From an uncultured Neisseriaceae bacterium (lineage in GTDB: Bacteria; Pseudomonadota; Gammaproteobacteria; Burkholderiales; UBA11063): a stretch of 15,632 nucleotides of DNA. Location: NCBI GenBank assembly GCA_903891375.1, contig CAITEL010000136.1:1-15632 (forward strand). The letters run 5' to 3'. This document shows positions 2-15,632 of this stretch, piece by piece. Each line of letters opens with the position of its first letter. Position 1 is the stretch's first letter. A program made the position numbers and the translations under genes. Under the pieces are notes generated by a model. That model made no database searches, was not told the DNA's origin, and was given only the letters and a program-made list of their open reading frames with translations.

Positions 2-433
2 TATTTAAATTATAGCAACAAAAATGATGCAATTAAGGTTGTCGTATCCTATGTGTGTAAAGAAGAGATAGTTACGACCTTTAATAATTATTTAAATTTA
101 TATAAAAAGAACATTGCTGAGGCAGGAACTACAGAAGAGAAAATTGCAGCAATTATATTATTTACGTTTCAAGTTGAATGTTCACATTTTTTTATAAATG
201 GAAATGGACGTTTATGTAGCCAAGCATTATTGTCGAAATTATTAATAGATAATCAACTTCACCCGACAGTATTATTTAATCCTTGGGAAGCTGGGGTTAC
301 AGCTATGATCTTAGTCGCAAACAGTGTAATTAATAATGAGCTCCCCACTATTCATGATTTAACTATGTGCTTATACCCGATAATTGAATGGGTTAAAGAG
401 GGGCAGTTATTTTATCAACAAATGAGTAAGTAA
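2..433 (+). CDS. Fic-like domain protein, C-terminal part (5' end outside window)
   Basis: The reading frame is open back to the first bases, so the gene most likely starts upstream. A GTG at 53 has no convincing ribosome-binding site. The key motif at 185-211 reads HFFINGNGR, which matches the Fic core HxFx(D/E)GNGRxxR: the catalytic His, the Phe and the GNGR anion-binding loop are present. The acidic Mg-binding residue is Asn here and the second Arg is replaced (RLCS). Fic proteins usually transfer AMP or another phosphate-containing group to target proteins. With these changes this one may be weakened or may use different chemistry. The helical segments before and after the motif fit a Fic fold. 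It converges on nadD, with 28 bp between the stop codons and no clear terminator. Family assignment is fairly likely; activity and target are unknown. Confidence 0.6.
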   Translation, partial: YLNYSNKNDAIKVVVSYVCKEEIVTTFNNYLNLYKKNIAEAGTTEEKIAAIILFTFQVECSHFFINGNGRLCSQALLSKLLIDNQLHPTVLFNPWEAGVTAMILVANSVINNELPTIHDLTMCLYPIIEWVKEGQLFYQQMSK

Positions 434-7359: not shown

Positions 7360-7641
7360 CTATTTTTCTTTGTATACTTCTTTACGATGACCGAGTCCCG
7401 CAATTAAAATTAAAATATTTTCATCTTGAATATTACATAAAATTCTATAATCTCCTACCCTGTAACACCAGTTTTCACCTAAAGCACTTCCTTGTAACGC
7501 CTTACCCCATAAGCGTGGATTACTACAACCGATCAATCTCTCACTTATCCATGTCATTAAACGTTTTGATGTTTGTTTATCTAATTTTTTTAATTGCCGT
7601 AGAGCTACTTCATTATAAGTAACCTTAAAGCTCAAGCTCAC
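7360..7641 (-). CDS. relE: RelE/ParE-superfamily toxin of a type II toxin-antitoxin pair
   Basis: RelE-type toxins are small ribosome-dependent mRNA endonucleases that are inhibited by their antitoxin. The 93-aa protein has the family layout: FKVTYNEVALRQLKKLD (5-21), a two-helix N-terminus, then LWGKALQGSALGENWCYRVGD without gaps. It ends in DYRILCNI and the GLGHRKEVY motif (82-90), with R72-equivalent Arg in YRVGDYRIL and the C-terminal His-Arg-Lys and Tyr that are typical of the active site. The start is GTG at 7641, decided by a perfect AGGAGG (7648-7653) 6 nt upstream. It overlaps the antitoxin gene by 17 nt, so the two are translationally coupled. ParE and YafQ are related alternatives, but the RVGDYRIL/GHRKEVY pattern favours RelE. 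Confidence 0.88.
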   Translation of the reverse strand: MSLSFKVTYNEVALRQLKKLDKQTSKRLMTWISERLIGCSNPRLWGKALQGSALGENWCYRVGDYRILCNIQDENILILIAGLGHRKEVYKEK

Positions 7642-8164: not shown

Positions 8165-8419
8165 CTAGTGTTTTAACATCTCTTTTTTCACTAATTCATT
8201 TAAATAACCACTAGCATTTTTATGATTCCGAAGCCACGCTATAACATCCTTATCTAGTGTAAAATTAGCCTTACTTTTTATCGATTTATAAAATAAATGA
8301 TTGGGGTGTACTAATTTAGATTCTGTTGTTGTAATGTCTACATCATCACTAAAATCAATGTCTTTATCTTCCATATTTTTCAAAAAAGCTAATTGCTCTT
8401 CTCTATTTTTTGTTTTCAT
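8165..8419 (-). CDS. brnA: BrnA-type antitoxin
   Basis: BrnA is the antitoxin and autorepressor of the BrnTA type II system. The start at 8419 is chosen over the longer frame because AAAGGAG lies 8 nt upstream and the protein then begins MKTKNREEQLAFLKNM. This start, with the following KDIDFSDDVDIT, is very typical of BrnA. The 84-aa product ends with a ribbon-helix-helix-like part: ANFTLDKDVIAWLRNH, then an ASGYLNELVKKEML helix. It overlaps the 3' end of brnT by 17 nt and follows it, which matches the toxin-first order of this system. Confidence 0.92.
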   Translation of the reverse strand: MKTKNREEQLAFLKNMEDKDIDFSDDVDITTTESKLVHPNHLFYKSIKSKANFTLDKDVIAWLRNHKNASGYLNELVKKEMLKH

Positions 8420-8669
8420 AATAAATTCTCCTTTCAGTTTTACTAGCACATCTTACCGATATAATCCTATATTTATCATCTCGTATTGTATATATTACTG
8501 ATAAAACCACATCATCAATTGCACCGACAAATTTACTTCTTATTTCATTATTAACTATGCGATTTACTTCGTATGCGCTTTTATCTTGAAATACCTCTAT
8601 TGCTAACGAGAAGTCAATACTATGCTTTTCAATATTTATCTTATTTTTCTTATTATCCCACTCAAACAT
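8403..8669 (-). CDS. brnT: BrnT-type ribonuclease toxin
   Basis: BrnT is a RelE-fold RNase toxin that blocks translation by RNA cleavage. The 88-aa protein shows the family pattern: FEWDNKKNKINIEKHSIDF (2-20), then AIEVFQDK. A mid-part EIRSKFVGAIDDVVLSVIYT and the C-terminal RIISVRCASKTERRIYYE follow, with the conserved Arg/Ser/Arg and the ER..Y end. The ATG at 8669 is preferred to an in-frame GTG 6 nt upstream because AAGG lies 7 nt before the ATG. It is the first gene of the brnTA operon, and a near-consensus promoter lies just upstream. Confidence 0.92.
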   Translation of the reverse strand: MFEWDNKKNKINIEKHSIDFSLAIEVFQDKSAYEVNRIVNNEIRSKFVGAIDDVVLSVIYTIRDDKYRIISVRCASKTERRIYYENKK

Positions 8670-8694
8670 ATACACACCTTTTTATACATACTAT

Positions 8695-9030: not shown

Positions 9031-11001
9031 ATGGTGTCATTTTTTTGTTCACGTCTTAAATTTTTTAAAAATTGTAATTTCATTTTAATAATAGCCGTAT
9101 TATTTGGCTTATCTGCATGTAATTCTGATGTAGGTGGTGCTAATGGCACTAATGCTAGTCAAAATCTAAAATTAATGGATAGCGTTAATGATTCCAATGT
9201 AGCCACTTTTAGTTGGATATTAGATGGAAGATTAGCTACAGCAGATGATTACGCTCAAGTTAAAGATACTGCTTGGCATTTATTAACCATAAACGTAACA
9301 AGTGCACCACAGGGATTTGAGTCAAGAACTATTGATTGGTTTCAAATAAAAGTTCCAAGCACCACGTATGGACAGGCAATTGAATTACAAGACATCAATT
9401 GTAAAGGTGCAAAATTTACGAAAGTAGGTGATTCTTGTAGCGTTCATTTTCGGCAGACCTATAATCAAGAGAAGTACCCTCAGGTAACTTCAGTACTTTT
9501 TTATAATATATTAATGGGTTTATTTGATGTAAAAGGTGAAGAGTTAAGTTCCTTAAGATATACTACATCAATTACAAAAATTGATAATTCAGTGGCTGAA
9601 TACCGAGCTATTTTACCAATTGAATCAGAATATTTTGCAGGAAGTCAGGTTCAAAGTAATAAAAATTTATATCAAATTTTAATGTTACAAAATGTTAAAC
9701 CATTAGCAGTAAACTTAACTACACTATCAACCCCACAAAATCCAAAATTTACTTTAATGCATAGGTTATCTACTGAAAGTACCGATGTTTATTATGCTGG
9801 GTTTAATGAATGTTCTTTAGTGGCTAATCCAACATTAAATCAGGTTAATCGCTTAGAGTCAACTGATGATAAATGTATCTTGGTATATAAAGTTGATGGT
9901 ACATCAACTAACTCAGTTGAAAAAGATGTTATAAATGTAGCAACTGACGCTAAAAGGTTTTATCCAGGTTACCCTAAAATATTTAACTTAATCGCTAATT
10001 ATATCAATGGTACACCATTGCCAGACCAATACGTTACATTGCAACAATCACCTGCAGATCCAAATACGTACGTTAGCCCTGTGGTGAAAACCACATTACC
10101 GTTTAAAACTGTTAATGTGAACTATGTCACACATGGCATCACTATAACTTCATTAAATAAATTACCCAATGGTATCCTCCTACCTAAAGATACTACATAT
10201 CCGTTGTGGTCTCGAATATTTGATGGGCCAAATATGTTTTATATATCTGGTTATCTAGACCAATATCCAGATGGTACACAACTTGGTACAGATTCTAAAG
10301 CAGTTTCAGGTGACCAAATGGGTGGGTGGTATAACTATACCATTAATGCAAGGAAAGATCTAACGGCACAGGGTCTATTGTCTTTTACGGTTACTTATAC
10401 CTATATTTCTTTTGCTAATTGTAATTTTGGTACTCATAGCGTTACGCAAAACTATTCATTTAATACAGGAGGGGTTACTATTGCATCTGGTGGTTGTAGT
10501 AATTGTTGCACAGGTGGGAGTGACCCAGGTTCGGCCAACTATAATGTTACTTTAAATGGTATTTCATGTAATGGAGCAAATTGTCAAATTTCCCTAAATA
10601 TGCATACCGAATTTGGACGTAGTGGCGGTTGGAGACGTGCAGATTTCCCTTCAACTATTACCATCCCACAACCAACACTTAATAAAATTGCTACTACAAC
10701 ATCGCCACTAGATGTAAGCTCATCATATAAGTTAATTACGGATGAATATCCGAATAGTCATGTTTTTAATGTTCAATTAAGTAATGTTTCCAATTTGCCA
10801 TGTTCAGAGCCAATTTGGAATGGCTCTGGTTATTCTTATTGTGGTGCATTTAATTCTACCGCACCTGTTGATAATATGTCGATTTCATCAAATAAATCTG
10901 AAGAATATAATCTATCATTTATTCGTTCAAGTGGCTATGATTTGAATGATTTTAATATAGTACAACAAGATAATAGCAAAAAAGGTAGCCAACATGAATA
11001 G
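9031..11001 (+). CDS. Lipoprotein of unknown function, 656 aa, first gene of the cassette
   Basis: I do not recognise this protein as a whole. It has a basic, hydrophobic signal peptide ending in the lipobox LSAC (27-30), so C30 should be lipidated and the mature protein anchored to a membrane. The mature part looks beta-rich, with many short Thr/Ser/Asn-containing strands. A segment near residues 128-144 (NCKGAKF...GDSCSVHF, 11 residues between the cysteines) resembles the paired-Cys end of bacterial Ig-like domains of the ASPM/HYDIN type. A glycine-rich turn with C489, C492 and C493 (GGCSNCCTGG) and a further pair C513/C518 mark a C-terminal domain. It overlaps the next gene by 8 nt (shared ATGAATAG), so the two are translationally coupled. 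A strong GGAGGG supports the ATG. Confidence 0.8.
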   Translation: MVSFFCSRLKFFKNCNFILIIAVLFGLSACNSDVGGANGTNASQNLKLMDSVNDSNVATFSWILDGRLATADDYAQVKDTAWHLLTINVTSAPQGFESRTIDWFQIKVPSTTYGQAIELQDINCKGAKFTKVGDSCSVHFRQTYNQEKYPQVTSVLFYNILMGLFDVKGEELSSLRYTTSITKIDNSVAEYRAILPIESEYFAGSQVQSNKNLYQILMLQNVKPLAVNLTTLSTPQNPKFTLMHRLSTESTDVYYAGFNECSLVANPTLNQVNRLESTDDKCILVYKVDGTSTNSVEKDVINVATDAKRFYPGYPKIFNLIANYINGTPLPDQYVTLQQSPADPNTYVSPVVKTTLPFKTVNVNYVTHGITITSLNKLPNGILLPKDTTYPLWSRIFDGPNMFYISGYLDQYPDGTQLGTDSKAVSGDQMGGWYNYTINARKDLTAQGLLSFTVTYTYISFANCNFGTHSVTQNYSFNTGGVTIASGGCSNCCTGGSDPGSANYNVTLNGISCNGANCQISLNMHTEFGRSGGWRRADFPSTITIPQPTLNKIATTTSPLDVSSSYKLITDEYPNSHVFNVQLSNVSNLPCSEPIWNGSGYSYCGAFNSTAPVDNMSISSNKSEEYNLSFIRSSGYDLNDFNIVQQDNSKKGSQHE

Positions 11002-12502
11002 ATTTTTTTATTTGGTAATTTCTTTGCTTGTTTTTACTGGTGGCTGTAGTTCGGGTGGCAACAGTGGTAGTGGCGATATTGCGGTAAATACTTATCAAGC
11101 TGGTAATATCGAAGTATCAGCTGAGAGTTTAGTAGCATTTGGTGGTACACAGCGTGTATCCGTAAAATTAGTTAATAGTAAAAATGTAACAAAACCAGTA
11201 ATGATGAGCTCTTCATCAACCAACCCTACAGCTCTTCATTATATTGGTTGTTATACTGGCCTCACTTCAGCTAACAATACTTGTGATTTAAATGTGTTAG
11301 GAGGACAAATAGGTAATGAATCTGCCGATATAACCTTAAGATTTGAATCATATGGTTCACATACGGTTCATTTACAAACAACGCATGATTGGGCGGCACT
11401 AAATGCCCCGATGGTGTCAGATAATAATTTCAGCTTTGAACCAAGCCAAATTGTATTTGATGAAAATGAAAATTATTATGTGCTAGGTCAATATGCTTAC
11501 ACAGAATCAAGTAATATAAATTATATCGCAGAATACAGAGGGGGTAATTGGGGGGCATTCACCCCAGGTGGTGAAGGTGTTATGGCTGGTCAAATTTTGA
11601 ATTTGGCGATTGAACACAATAATCTTTGTGCATTAATTTACGATGGTATAAATAATATATCTTATGTAGAATGTACTGATGGGAATACACAGTGGTCAAA
11701 GATTGGTGATAATTTCAACATGTCATTTGCGTCTTTGGCATTTGTATTTGAAAATTCTATTCTTTACCTTGCAGAATATAGTGGTAGGATAGATGGTACT
11801 AATTCAATAATTTCCACGTATCATTGCCAACTTACTAATTGTCTAGAATGGCAACCATTTGGCAGATCAGAAGACATATTTCCTGAAACTAATTCGAGCA
11901 ATCTGCTTAATCAAATTGATTTTATTGGGCATAATTTGGTTGCAAGTAACTATTTTACTGGCGGTGGTTGGAGTATGCGTATGCAAAAAGATGATGGTAC
12001 ATGGATGCCATATGCGACCAACTCTTATGCTCAGAATGAGTCTGGGCAATTTGAAATCGCAACCTCAGAAAGTTTAGTGGTTATGTCGGTAGAAGCACAA
12101 AATCAAGTGTATTATATAGATAAGGTATCGGGTGGGAATTTCGTACCTTTGGCAAACGGTGCCACATTACCAAACGGTGTTTTACCTCTCGTTGATTATC
12201 GACGTCATACTTATTCTGACAAGGATGGCAATCTTGTAAGAAGTGAAACATCGTTTAAGTTAACTCATTTAGTAGTTAGTGGCAATCGAGTATATTTAGT
12301 AGGTACCGATAATCAAATATATACTGCAACTACAATAGGCAACACATGGGAGCTTGTCGGTAATCTGCCAGAATATGTGAAACATCAACTCACTGTATTA
12401 GCAGTACATCAAAATAAACTTTTTGTTGCTACAGGAAACTCTAATGGAGTAAACCACAGTACAGTAGCCGTATTAACTAACTCTCAATATATGGATAAAT
12501 AA
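10994..12502 (+). CDS. Lipoprotein with Ig-like N-domain and possible beta-propeller, 502 aa
   Basis: A short signal peptide ends at C18 (FTGGC; Thr at -3 is unusual for a lipobox but acceptable). Residues about 35-120 look like an Ig-like domain, with SVKLVNSKNVTKP and a Cys pair ten residues apart (GCYTGLTSANNTC). From about 145 to the end the sequence repeats a pattern of a hydrophobic strand of the type 'YVLGQY', 'ILYLAEY', 'RVYLVGT', 'KLFVATG', followed some 20 residues later by a W-containing segment (GNWGAF, TQWSKIG, LEWQPFG, GTWMPYA, NTWELVG). About six such units suggest a beta-propeller, which usually means a binding or scaffold role. The ATG overlaps the previous gene by 8 nt, with AAGGT 7-11 nt upstream. 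Function is unknown. Confidence 0.75.
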   Translation: MNRFFYLVISLLVFTGGCSSGGNSGSGDIAVNTYQAGNIEVSAESLVAFGGTQRVSVKLVNSKNVTKPVMMSSSSTNPTALHYIGCYTGLTSANNTCDLNVLGGQIGNESADITLRFESYGSHTVHLQTTHDWAALNAPMVSDNNFSFEPSQIVFDENENYYVLGQYAYTESSNINYIAEYRGGNWGAFTPGGEGVMAGQILNLAIEHNNLCALIYDGINNISYVECTDGNTQWSKIGDNFNMSFASLAFVFENSILYLAEYSGRIDGTNSIISTYHCQLTNCLEWQPFGRSEDIFPETNSSNLLNQIDFIGHNLVASNYFTGGGWSMRMQKDDGTWMPYATNSYAQNESGQFEIATSESLVVMSVEAQNQVYYIDKVSGGNFVPLANGATLPNGVLPLVDYRRHTYSDKDGNLVRSETSFKLTHLVVSGNRVYLVGTDNQIYTATTIGNTWELVGNLPEYVKHQLTVLAVHQNKLFVATGNSNGVNHSTVAVLTNSQYMDK

Positions 12503-12503
12503 A

Positions 12504-14183
12504 ATGAATCAAATAAAATTATTTGCTATTGCCGTTGCGTCAACATTACTATGTGCTTGTAATAATAACACAGGAGCAACGAACACTCCAACAACAGTTG
12601 CTGCCCCGACAAATAAAACCCAGTTATTTGCGAATACCCAAAGTTCAAGCAGTATCTACTCTGTTGGTGGAACTTATGACACGATGTCGTCTAATCCAAC
12701 CGCAACTACAACATGCTTTCGTGATGGTGGCGATCCGACTAAATGGCGTATAGTTAATCCAAAAGCTAATTTAGATTTCTCACAGTCGCAATCACTACAA
12801 ACAATTGAACGCGCATTAGGTGTTGATTATTCTGAAACAATAAATGCAGGTCCATTTAGTGCAAGTATTGCCTTTAACTATGGTTATGCATCGCAGGATA
12901 CTAATTACTCTTTAAATATTAATTATGTATATCAATATGCGGGTACTGCTATGTTTAAAGACAATGCGTTAATTCAAGGTGAGAGTGTGCTAACACCAGA
13001 TGCACAAGCATTCCTGCATTCATCACCAACAGATTTTCGTCGAATGTGTGGTGATGGTTTTGTAGCATCATTAGATGCTGGGTCTAGTGTATTATTTCAT
13101 TTAACCCTAAAATTTGACTCAAACATAGAAAAGAATGCGTATAGTGATTCGTTTGATAAAATTGGTGGGTTAGATAGTGTTCTATCTAAAATTATGACAA
13201 ATCCTGGTGGAATACACTATAGTTTGAGTGCTTCAGGTCTACAATTAGGTGGTGACCCTACATTGTTAAATCAAATTTTTATCCAAAATGGAGGTAAGGT
13301 TGGTGCTGATGGATATCCAACTTTGGATTGCGGTACTGGTTCTAATAATAATTCTTGTGTGAATCTAATTAGCCAATTAATGACATATGTACAAAAAATT
13401 CCCGATGAATTACGTAGTGTTACAGATTATAATTTAATTAATCCAGTAGTCTCGAATTGGTCTAGCATAGGTATTGATCCAGGTCATACTGAGATTAATC
13501 CACAAACATTGACAGCTATGCAACAATTAACCTTGCAATACTACGCTGATGCGAGTAGTTTAACTTTATTAAAAAATTATCAGAATATGTTAATTAATAA
13601 AAATGTAAATACCGTAGATATGTTGCAAGAATTATCTAAAAATGTGCAAGATTATACAGATTTGATGAATATGTATCGTGATCCACAAATACATTTTGCC
13701 GATTGTTTTAACGGTTTTGTGTCGACTAGTTGTTTAAGTATCCATGATAAAGCTTTTGATAGTCGTCAGAAAATCTTGTCAACCAGTACTGATATATCCA
13801 AGTATATTAATAATAATCAATATACAATAGAACTACCAGTTACAAAAGATCGAACCAAAAAATGTGGGCTATCACCAGTAACATCAGAAAGTTCTGGGTT
13901 ATATTTAGTTAATTGTGATGGTCAAGTATCGGCAAATTTAAATCCAGATGCTGGATTACGAGTAACACACACGAGTAATGACGGCTTATTAATCAGTAAT
14001 TTACATTATGTGTTTACAGACAAAGATTCTGGAGTAAATACATTTAATGTTAGGTCAGATAATCCATTTTTAGTTGATGCTATAGATAATTATTCATATT
14101 TTGGTTCATTTCCTGTTGATGCTGTATTTAACGAAGTACCAATGCAATTTATGAGTTCTATATGGGTATGGCACAATCATTAA
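12504..14183 (+). CDS. Lipoprotein with possible MACPF/CDC-like pore-forming domain, 559 aa
   Basis: The signal peptide ends in lipobox LCAC (16-19), and a Thr/Pro/Asn-rich linker leads to the domain. GGTYDT (55-60) and FRRMCGDGFVASLDAG (178-193) follow, and LQLGGDP (246-252) comes later. In MACPF/perforin proteins the order is a GxGYD-like strand, a (Y/F)GTH(Y/F)(V/I)...GG signature, and a later GG-x-P. The layout here is similar, with CGDGFV in place of the GTH core. Alternating polar/hydrophobic strands (115-147, 194-206) would suit membrane-inserting hairpins. Cysteines at 71, 182, 276, 285, 401 and 410 match those of the next gene. The C-terminal part (about 440-559) is beta-rich. The start is 1 nt after the previous stop, so translation is probably coupled. 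Lipoprotein: likely. MACPF-like fold: inference. Confidence 0.75.
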   Translation: MNQIKLFAIAVASTLLCACNNNTGATNTPTTVAAPTNKTQLFANTQSSSSIYSVGGTYDTMSSNPTATTTCFRDGGDPTKWRIVNPKANLDFSQSQSLQTIERALGVDYSETINAGPFSASIAFNYGYASQDTNYSLNINYVYQYAGTAMFKDNALIQGESVLTPDAQAFLHSSPTDFRRMCGDGFVASLDAGSSVLFHLTLKFDSNIEKNAYSDSFDKIGGLDSVLSKIMTNPGGIHYSLSASGLQLGGDPTLLNQIFIQNGGKVGADGYPTLDCGTGSNNNSCVNLISQLMTYVQKIPDELRSVTDYNLINPVVSNWSSIGIDPGHTEINPQTLTAMQQLTLQYYADASSLTLLKNYQNMLINKNVNTVDMLQELSKNVQDYTDLMNMYRDPQIHFADCFNGFVSTSCLSIHDKAFDSRQKILSTSTDISKYINNNQYTIELPVTKDRTKKCGLSPVTSESSGLYLVNCDGQVSANLNPDAGLRVTHTSNDGLLISNLHYVFTDKDSGVNTFNVRSDNPFLVDAIDNYSYFGSFPVDAVFNEVPMQFMSSIWVWHNH

Positions 14184-14306
14184 ACACAAATTTAACTATT
14201 GTTTTTGAGGGAGGGTAATCTTAGATTTGATAATGTAATTTATTTTCGTGTGAATTTTACGTTAATTTTTGTTTTGTAAAATAATTTTTTTTAGGGGAAC
14301 TGATAT
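14184..14306 (+). promoter_or_regulatory. Spacer between the two paralogues, possible weak promoter
   Basis: The 123-bp gap contrasts with the overlapping or near-touching genes before it. TTGAGG (14203-14208 region) and GATAAT about 18 bp downstream could form a weak promoter. TTTTAC (14256 region) and GTAAAA (14275 region) could pair. No clear terminator is present, so read-through from the upstream genes is also possible. Confidence 0.3.
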
Positions 14307-15632
14307 ATGCGAACATTAAATAAATGTACGGTGGTCTTAGGCAGCGTATTAAGTGTTGCAATGCTAACTGGTTGTGATAATGGTGTTGGTAATGGTAATA
14401 GTAGCTCACCACAAACCACAGGTTCAACGACATCAAGCATACAATCGAAGACACAAAAGGTATCAACACCACTATTAGGTGATAGCCTATTTGCAGTACG
14501 TATGGGGTCTGGTTATGACACTGTAACAAATACAGCAACGTCAGGGCAGTCATGTTTAGCTGCTACAAGTATAGAATCGAATATGTATATAGCTAATCCA
14601 ACCGCTATGATTAATTTTGAGCAACAGCAAGGATTAGCTAATTTACAAAATAATTTAGGTGTTGATGTCAGTGGAAAATACGGTGGCGATAGATTTAGTG
14701 TGTCAGCGGCTGCACAATTCGCTACTGATTCAAAAGATAGTGGTTATACGACAAATCTGGTTTATCTATATAAATATGCAGGGCAAGCGTCATTTAAAAA
14801 TGGAGCGCTGAATCAAGGTGACGCTGCATTAACTCCAACTGCAGCATCTCTAGTGCATAAAGATCAAGTACGTTTTAGACAAATGTGTGGTAATTCATAT
14901 GTTGAACAGATGGATGCTGGAGCTACACTTGCTGTTCGATATACTTTGTCTTTCCACTCACATGCAGATCAAGAACGTTTTAGAGCTAAAATGGATATGA
15001 CTGTGGGGTTGGCGAATATCGCAGGAGACATACAACAAGCAGCTAATAATTCAAATGTAAATGTTGGTTTTTCTATAAGTGCCATTCAAATGGGTGGTCA
15101 GCCTGAAAAATTAAATAATATTTTTGGGCAAGTAGAAAGTACTGGTAATTACCCATTTGTTGATTGTGGTAGTGTTGGTGGGTCTAGCCAAGACTCGTGT
15201 AATCATATGACATCTGCAATTATAACCTATGCAAAATCAATGGAGCAACAATTAACTAACCCTGACGGAAATATTGCATTTGATAGACTATACTATAATA
15301 ATCCAGCTCATTCAGATTATTCAACATTAGGTATAGCAGTAGGTGCCCCAGATCCGAGTAAAGAAGTTCTTGAGGCAATGCGGTCATTAACACACGATTA
15401 TGATAAAGCAGTTGTAGATTATCAATTTGTGACTCATTACTTAAATGCAATTCCAGATTATCTTGATGCACCAACTTTAGGTAATTTAAAAGATGCTGCT
15501 AATAGACTAAATGCACAAGTATATGGTGTGTATCGTAGCCCTGTCTATAAAGTACTTAATTGTTATAAGGGGGATGTGTCGGAAGATTGTCTCAATATTA
15601 AAAGTAATGTGGATGACGCAGTTAAATCAGAA
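14307..15632 (+). CDS. Paralogous MACPF-like lipoprotein, 442 aa visible (3' end outside window)
   Basis: The frame is open from ATG 14307 to the last base with no stop, so the gene continues to the right. An AGGGGA element 8 nt upstream supports the start. The signal peptide ends in lipobox LTGC (20-23), with Asp at +2. It is a clear paralogue of the preceding gene: GSGYDT (67-72), FRQMCGNSYVEQMDAG (190-205) and IQMGGQP (260-266) align with that gene's motifs. YPFVDCG...DSC (282-298) and NCYKGDVSEDCLNI (418-431) align as well. Cysteines 83, 194, 287, 298, 419 and 428 correspond to 71, 182, 276, 285, 401 and 410 there. GSGYD is closer to the GxGYD strand of MACPF proteins than the GGTYD of its neighbour. 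Residues about 350-405 are helical. The pore-forming assignment is inference. Confidence 0.78.
   Translation, partial: MRTLNKCTVVLGSVLSVAMLTGCDNGVGNGNSSSPQTTGSTTSSIQSKTQKVSTPLLGDSLFAVRMGSGYDTVTNTATSGQSCLAATSIESNMYIANPTAMINFEQQQGLANLQNNLGVDVSGKYGGDRFSVSAAAQFATDSKDSGYTTNLVYLYKYAGQASFKNGALNQGDAALTPTAASLVHKDQVRFRQMCGNSYVEQMDAGATLAVRYTLSFHSHADQERFRAKMDMTVGLANIAGDIQQAANNSNVNVGFSISAIQMGGQPEKLNNIFGQVESTGNYPFVDCGSVGGSSQDSCNHMTSAIITYAKSMEQQLTNPDGNIAFDRLYYNNPAHSDYSTLGIAVGAPDPSKEVLEAMRSLTHDYDKAVVDYQFVTHYLNAIPDYLDAPTLGNLKDAANRLNAQVYGVYRSPVYKVLNCYKGDVSEDCLNIKSNVDDAVKSE

Follow-up and report, generated by a model that had tools for sequence, protein, structure and literature searches.

Paired cysteine-bearing lipoproteins of an uncultured Neisseriaceae bacterium as probable members of the MACPF/CDC superfamily

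Contig CAITEL010000136.1 from an uncultured Neisseriaceae bacterium is complete at 15,632 bases, all of which were analyzed (herein, the window), and belongs to a genome of 2.08 Mb in 422 contigs. Its right-hand side is occupied by four consecutive lipoprotein genes on the + strand, in the order ORF1-ORF2-ORF3-ORF4. The latter two encode proteins that most likely represent a Pfam-invisible, cysteine-bearing branch of the MACPF/CDC superfamily and would act as a two-part pore former, in which ORF3 is termed the A component and ORF4 the B component. The four genes of the cassette are:

9031..11001, + strand: ORF1, a 656 aa lipoprotein with lipobox LSAC, from a function-unassigned family that accompanies MACPF-like genes
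10994..12502, + strand: ORF2, a 502 aa lipoprotein with lipobox TGGC
12504..14183, + strand: ORF3 (A component), a 559 aa MACPF-like lipoprotein
14307..15632, + strand: ORF4 (B component), a 442 aa MACPF-like lipoprotein, the 3′ end of which is cut off by the contig end

Because ORF1 runs 8 bases into ORF2 and a gap of 1 base separates ORF2 from ORF3, these three genes look co-transcribed; the gap between ORF3 and ORF4 is 123 bases. Promoter-like matches in the window did not exceed the frequency in shuffled sequences.

ORF3 and ORF4 were identical at 130 of 427 aligned positions in a single BLASTP comparison (E=4e-60), so that their sharing of motifs lies far beyond chance. Both are predicted bacterial lipoproteins, with a lipobox recognized by pattern match after the N-terminal hydrophobic stretch (LCAC at residue 19 in ORF3 and LTGC at residue 23 in ORF4). 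The motifs correspond as GGTYD in ORF3 and GSGYD in ORF4, FRRMCGDGFV..LDAG and FRQMCGNSYV..MDAG, and LQLGGDP and IQMGGQP, respectively. Additionally, six cysteines (C71, C182, C276, C285, C401, and C410 in ORF3 numbering) occupied invariant columns in a family alignment of 33 sequences, as did the C-G of the signature and Q-x-G-G. The BLASTP comparison, the lipoboxes, and this alignment bear out the first-pass annotation in its description of adjacent paralogous lipoproteins that share six cysteines and the motifs named above. The residue directly behind the lipidation cysteine of ORF4 is an aspartate (residue 24, window positions 14376-14378), as it is in P0009 and is not in L014, L015, and L025. 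In E. coli, an aspartate in this position is an inner-membrane retention signal.

With remote relatives added, in an alignment of 49 mutually related rows that included nine from outside the order, each of the six cysteines was present in 44 to 48 of the rows. ORF3 has two extra cysteines, C454 and C471, which lie in the region beyond the truncated end of ORF4, where equivalents are absent because the contig ends. C276 and C285 were lost together in five of the 49 rows with zero exceptions, C454 and C471 nearly so (four exceptions among the 49), and C71 and C182 mostly together (two rows without both and one exception), in counts that score gaps as missing and with Fisher values that ignore the ancestry of related rows. 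Since members of these pairs are lost together, the covariation suggests disulfides.

The resemblance to MACPF/CDC proteins that the first-pass annotation had drawn from motif layout did not surface in the Pfam MACPF profile itself. PF01823 (cut-off 21.5 bits) gave nothing above that cut-off among the window proteins, 33 family members, and 23 family genomes, and a scan of 22 core pieces yielded one match (E=0.0026). It was custom family profiles that exposed the homology. A full-length profile (A2) placed Aeg-L first in the PDB (E=0.0011), followed by three unrelated entries (0.88-2.6), while for profile A3, restricted to the core and built from 24 same-genus rows, Aeg-L was the sole PDB match at E<=10 (1.9e-5). 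Profile A6 comprised 22 rows and incorporated remoter relatives, which match A3 at E<=1.6e-9 (19 proteins searched). Searched against 177,635 PDB sequences at E<=10, it gave seven matches, of which the best was Aeg-L from Alternaria (PDB 9uj0), aligned over A6 positions 5-209 with E=2.5e-12. The other six were stonustoxin beta (0.034), perforin-like protein 1 (0.041), perforin-1 (0.35 and 0.39), and Mpf2Ba1 (4.5 and 4.7). Stonustoxin, Mpf2Ba1, and Aeg-L we take to be MACPF/CDC proteins, and the weight of the A6 matches is in this common identity, not in their individual scores.

Two further searches pointed the same way. From a phylum sample of 398 genomes, A6 pulled a protein (L104) at E=2.1e-5 per genome, or about 0.008 over all 398, which is itself a Pfam-positive MACPF protein (63.9 bits versus the PF01823 cut-off of 21.5); three of the four profiles gave L104 scores of 20-28 bits, as compared to 9-11 bits for their best decoys. 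Moreover, a profile built from nine remote relatives outside the genus, with no genus rows so as to limit circularity, recovered ORF4 (1.4e-18), ORF3 (3.9e-10), L104 (1e-4), and L078, a lipoprotein of genome G020 (9.8e-4), against 0.12 for the best of 5000 shuffled decoys, although five of its rows (L099-L103) had been picked using profiles that contained genus rows. Because profiles from several directions agree (A3, A6, the retrieval of L104, and the nine-relative profile), ORF3 and ORF4 are very probably homologous to members of the MACPF/CDC superfamily, and the resemblance first proposed from the motifs is upheld.

The anatomy of the predicted core can be laid out along both genes, with the hairpin regions inferred from position and length and their limits set by us (TMH, transmembrane hairpin):

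12666..12680, + strand: G-G-T-Y-D of ORF3, counterpart of the LGxGYD strand
12765..12923, + strand: putative TMH1 of ORF3, residues 88-140
13047..13085, + strand: C-G-D-G-F-X6-G-S of ORF3, signature equivalent
13116..13232, + strand: putative TMH2 of ORF3, residues 205-243
13242..13259, + strand: Q-L-G-G-D-P of ORF3, second GG
14505..14519, + strand: G-S-G-Y-D of ORF4, a sequence motif
14886..14924, + strand: C-G-N-S-Y-X6-G-A of ORF4, signature equivalent
15084..15104, + strand: I-Q-M-G-G-Q-P of ORF4, second GG

In the A6 alignments, the GGTYD block fell on LGAGYD of perforin-like protein 1, in a sub-match of only 0.2 bits. The MACPF signature is given as Y/W-G-T/S-H-F/Y-X6-GG in the available text of PMC2954219, and in its register both YGTHF of perforin-1 and YGSHL of L104 aligned on CGD. 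Across the 49 rows, the first signature position (C182) was cysteine in 46 and tyrosine in three, G183 was present in all 49, the fifth position was F or Y in 42, and a glycine followed the X6 in 44. A same-genus paralogue, L058, reads C-G-T-H-Y, which is an intermediate form of the signature by sequence. The replacement of the GTH core by CGDGF or CGNSY at the MACPF register, as first noted from the letters alone, is thus seen in the alignments to perforin-1 and L104 and in L058. The second GG was similarly constant (G249 in 48 and G250 in 49 of 49 rows) and lay +66 to +74 from the signature in 48. Across 16 A and B rows, the putative TMH1 spans 51-53 aa and the putative TMH2 38-42 aa, both at the expected places. 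Alternation in hydrophobicity was strongest at about residues 194-209 in the A clade, and also appeared near 236-245 and 101-115 in both clades and at 209-223 in B, among the top 14 of about 255 windows, uncorrected; these sites would roughly match the expected strand 3, hairpin 2, and strand 4.

Phylogenetic reconstruction placed ORF3 and ORF4 in different clades, with the B clade comprising five rows (support 100/99), in a tree made without P0010 and L024 (the same protein) and in which L025 fills 28% of the columns. An A gene was located directly upstream of a B gene, on the same strand, in four genomes (G000, G003, G021, and G004), a repeated A-B order that substantiates the tandem pairing of paralogues seen in the window. 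In G003, G021, and G004, the genes flanking the cassette differ between genomes. A long-branched relative in G015 (L006) had no B-clade neighbor among the tree rows of that genome. All five B proteins have a lipobox, while for A it was present in six of 12 rows (P0005 by eye; L006 excluded) and not in P0002, P0008, L003, and L013; L004 was ambiguous and the start of P0007 is missing.

An ORF1-type lipoprotein is part of three of the four A-B cassettes. The ORF1 family (profile A7) was found in seven of 23 family genomes, one by a weak 41-residue match, and its members adjoin, or are one gene from, MACPF-like genes in G000, G003, G021, G015, and G018; in G002, ORF1 relatives are on a 9.6-kb contig without a MACPF-like gene. 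In G015 (L085, contig C5) and G018 (L092, contig C260), several MACPF-like genes stand in arrays that contain or adjoin an ORF1 relative. Next to the G004 pair, tblastn gave an ORF1-like match (1.3e-9) that neither phmmer nor the profile confirmed, and it was not counted. ORF1 had no Pfam match at E<=10, and the best PDB match of A7 was at E=0.6; ORF1 contains GTHS, but it scored -0.2 bits with A6 and did not appear with A3, and the idea that it is a hidden MACPF paralogue was rejected. For ORF2, the G021 cassette yielded a tblastn match (E=1.5e-11), whereas phmmer gave no match to any of the neighbors; DUF6242 (E=0.2) and an F510_1955 glycosylhydrolase model (E=0.0012) were below cut-off, and there was no PDB match at E<=1.

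Several characterized systems invite comparison. Aeg names presumably stand for aegerolysin-type proteins, and we take Aeg-L to be similar to pleurotolysin B; aegerolysin (PF06355) was above cut-off in none of the 23 family genomes, with one weak match (E=0.056). Aeg-L reads Y-G-D-R-F-X6-G-G as against C-G-D-G-F-X6-G-S in ORF3, and it is fungal and has Aeg-S as its partner, whereas that of ORF3 would be a paralogue. Reviews, so far as their text was available, report Aeg-L as pore-forming with Aeg-S (PMC13253223, PMC13341504, PMC13211753).

Among bacteria, the Bth-MACPF proteins BT_3439 and BT_3437 of Bacteroides thetaiotaomicron are described as a homologous pair, 33% identical and likely in one operon, and most proteins of their cluster have lipoprotein signal peptides, as in the ORF1-ORF4 cassette; the signature of Bth-MACPF, which has a solved structure, is also divergent (YGEFV-X6-GG), although it retains the aromatic residue and both glycines, unlike ORF3 and ORF4 (PMC2954219). 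They belong to Bacteroidota and, in contrast to ORF3 and ORF4, are recognized as MACPF, and the accessible portion of that report mentions no cysteine pattern (PMC2954219). The Bacteroidales secreted antimicrobial proteins (BSAPs) are surface lipoproteins that combine a MACPF domain with a C-terminal domain that varies, a plan that ORF3 and ORF4 would share, but they are PF01823 members with a lipoprotein export signal known from their phylum, their receptors and killing have been shown, and a paralogous partner, as in the ORF3/ORF4 pair, is not mentioned in the available text (PMC12853789). Two-component CDCL toxins likewise pair components from the MACPF/CDC superfamily, and their operon includes an immunity lipoprotein; they are of the CDC-like branch, come from Bacteroidota, and are activated by C11-type proteases, going by the text at hand (PMC11169675). 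The term unusual, which the first-pass annotation applied to a lipoprotein-tethered pore former, was too strong, as both MACPF lipoproteins and tandemly arranged paralogues have been described in Bacteroides in the available parts of these reports (PMC2954219, PMC12853789). Because Bacteroides already has lipoprotein and paired MACPF/CDC proteins, what ORF3 and ORF4 add is a cysteine-bearing variant rather than a novel kind.

In the mechanism we propose, ORF3 (A) and ORF4 (B) would be exported via the Sec/lipoprotein route. In each, a MACPF-like core that is probably disulfide-stabilized would make up the N-terminal part (in ORF3, residues 48-260 or so), with a C-terminal part of unassigned fold behind it. 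B would remain membrane-anchored; A would be tethered in certain species and apparently free in the rest. A and B could co-oligomerize on a target membrane, where the putative TMH1 and TMH2 would unfold to beta-hairpins and open a pore; the targets may be neighboring bacteria or grazing protists, and ORF1 and ORF2 might serve as receptor, scaffold, or immunity factor of the cassette. Judged from sequence comparisons, pore formation by such a two-part A/B system is moderately probable. An extended version, quite improbable as a whole, is of a four-lipoprotein weapon cassette of Pseudomonadota in which surface B and releasable A would build a disulfide-locked mixed pore, C71-C182 would tie the start of TMH1 to the signature cysteine such that redox gates the pore, and ORF1 and ORF2 would provide target recognition or self-protection.

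A number of results weigh against reading ORF3 and ORF4 as paired MACPF/CDC pore formers, at the levels of homology, function, and partnership. Neither protein had a Pfam or NCBIfam match above cut-off, the order member closest to the Pfam MACPF model (L061) stayed below the 21.5-bit cut-off with 16 bits, and ORF3 as a lone query had only marginal unrelated matches (an MPN262 model, E=0.0043; a PDB DUF4465 protein, 0.024; a PDB coat protein, 0.15). Six of the seven A6 matches in the PDB scored 9.9-16.9 bits, partly overlapping the best decoys across six profiles (9.3-13.0 bits). A profile from seven class members alone missed L104 (E=1.7), and profile A8, from the A and B clades alone, missed Aeg-L at E<=10 and gave two unrelated entries. 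Additionally, the Y/W and T/S-H of the signature are replaced in the family, with X6-GG complete in four of 49 rows. The similarity could be a chance resemblance of motifs in unrelated cysteine-rich surface lipoproteins, a view that the absence of a direct match for ORF3, ORF4, or the A/B-only profile and the mostly marginal PDB scores would suit, and that is highly improbable given that all seven A6 matches are MACPF/CDC proteins, in part by our own assumption, and that Pfam-positive L104 was retrieved in register, with scores that in most profiles were well apart from those of the decoys.

A MACPF-like fold might also operate without making pores, in surface adhesins, scaffolds, or signaling lipoproteins, and non-pore roles have been proposed for development-related MACPF proteins, the astrotactins and BRINPs. 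A GGXnW tryptophan is reported for pore-forming MACPF domains and is missing from some non-pore-forming members (PMC5483515), so that this residue says more about function than about membership; at the usual spacing it is absent here, and ORF4 has no tryptophan after the GG. The next tryptophan of ORF3, W319, is 69 residues on, in a column where 46 of 49 rows have W or Y, and is a possible displaced equivalent. The covarying cysteines 276/285 and 454/471, disulfides of which could rigidify the protein, the up to seven matches in a single genome (G015), and fusions of relatives to PKD/ASH, LamG, TPR, and jacalin domains, which fit adhesion as well as targeting, likewise favor a role other than pore making. 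Such a role is nevertheless unlikely, in that regions of 51-53 and 38-42 aa are present at the TMH sites, whereas TMH1 is almost missing from neuronal MACPF proteins (PMC5483515), and the nearest solved relative, Aeg-L, is described as a pore former in the review text cited above. As for partnership, A and B might instead form separate pores, or one could be an inhibitor (an immunity protein) duplicated from the toxin: the core and the second GG are kept in both, contig C282 of G003 has an A gene with no B within 2.8 kb downstream, and the CDCL operon holds an immunity lipoprotein, which the available text does not describe as a paralogue of the toxin (PMC11169675). However, the two form separate clades and are adjacent in constant order in four genomes, as for obligate partners, which makes their independence doubtful, albeit possible.

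Turning to distribution, genome counts were made with each search at its own thresholds, and every count includes the genome of the window. Of the 23 genomes from the GTDB family of the window, all of one genus, 12 carried the MACPF-like proteins, which were also present in 13 of 399 genomes in an order sample, 11 of 369 in a class sample (including one false positive and one weak match), and, using the broader profile, seven of 398 in the phylum sample. L071 was rejected as a family member, being a GHMP kinase by Pfam; it and the weak L070 were kept out of alignments, and L067, with five stops, was used no further. A protein database search with ORF3, in which the 7995 most word-sharing candidates were scored, found nine other proteins, none carrying a precomputed Pfam domain. 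Two contigs of metagenome-assembled genomes, from an uncultured Neisseriaceae bacterium and a Burkholderiales bacterium, bear the family. Matches were absent from 50,697 phage records and, by two peptide patterns, from viral contigs, and a first scan of genome contigs with ORF4 gave nine pattern matches, none of which was a relative. Literature searches on such proteins in Burkholderiales, Neisseriales, Piscirickettsia, and Gammaproteobacteria turned up nothing relevant among the titles and abstract openings listed, a minority of the matching papers, which is weak evidence of absence.

A single record among 72,556 plasmid records matched (E=1e-4), from the fish pathogen Piscirickettsia salmonis. 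Its hypothetical protein WP_017378285.1 belongs to the same family (core E=1.3e-39 versus A3, 19 proteins) and has the signature Y-G-N-S-F; equivalents of C71, C182, C276, and C285 are missing, as judged on L066, which is near-identical by eye, and no second MACPF-like gene was named within 6.5 kb. Within the genus, the lipoprotein L078 (2-2296, - strand, in G020) has a classical E-F-G-T-H-M core, because of which the genus may carry two superfamily branches. Against PF01823, L078 was below cut-off (17.7 bits by genome search, 16.3 by hmmscan), and its PDB matches at E<=1 were two pleurotolysin B entries (0.05 and 0.17).

Immunity, infection, and competition between bacteria all involve cell killing by MACPF/CDC proteins. 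The cysteine-signature branch escapes the Pfam MACPF model, yet it sits in over half of the family genomes and elsewhere in the class. If its members do make pores, they would offer a tractable proteobacterial counterpart to BSAPs and CDCLs; if not, they would represent a MACPF fold repurposed for surface functions.

Some relatives have elaborate architectures. L075 (1645-7647, - strand, in G584) encodes 2000 aa, with a PKD domain, several ASH/HYDIN-type Ig domains, a Gly-rich tail, and a MACPF-like core near residues 1332-1562. In L074, L064, L103, L101, and L060, MACPF-like cores are joined to LamG, TPR, jacalin, GON, and PASTA-like domains, the PASTA match falling just under its cut-off. 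In G119, L076 (11366-12766, - strand) is PI-PLC X-domain-like by eye and about 3 kb from a MACPF-like gene.

Finally, PADLOC had no match at E<=0.1 for four proteins. Elsewhere in the window, a start-truncated ORF at 2-433 (+ strand) is Fic/DOC-like, below the Pfam cut-off (19.4 versus 24 bits), and a ParE-type toxin (PF05016, 3.7e-9) is at 7363-7641 (- strand). Just upstream of the cassette, at 8168-8675 (- strand), a BrnT toxin gene (PF04365, 1e-20) overlaps a gene for a 94-aa partner that has no Pfam match and resembles BrnA.

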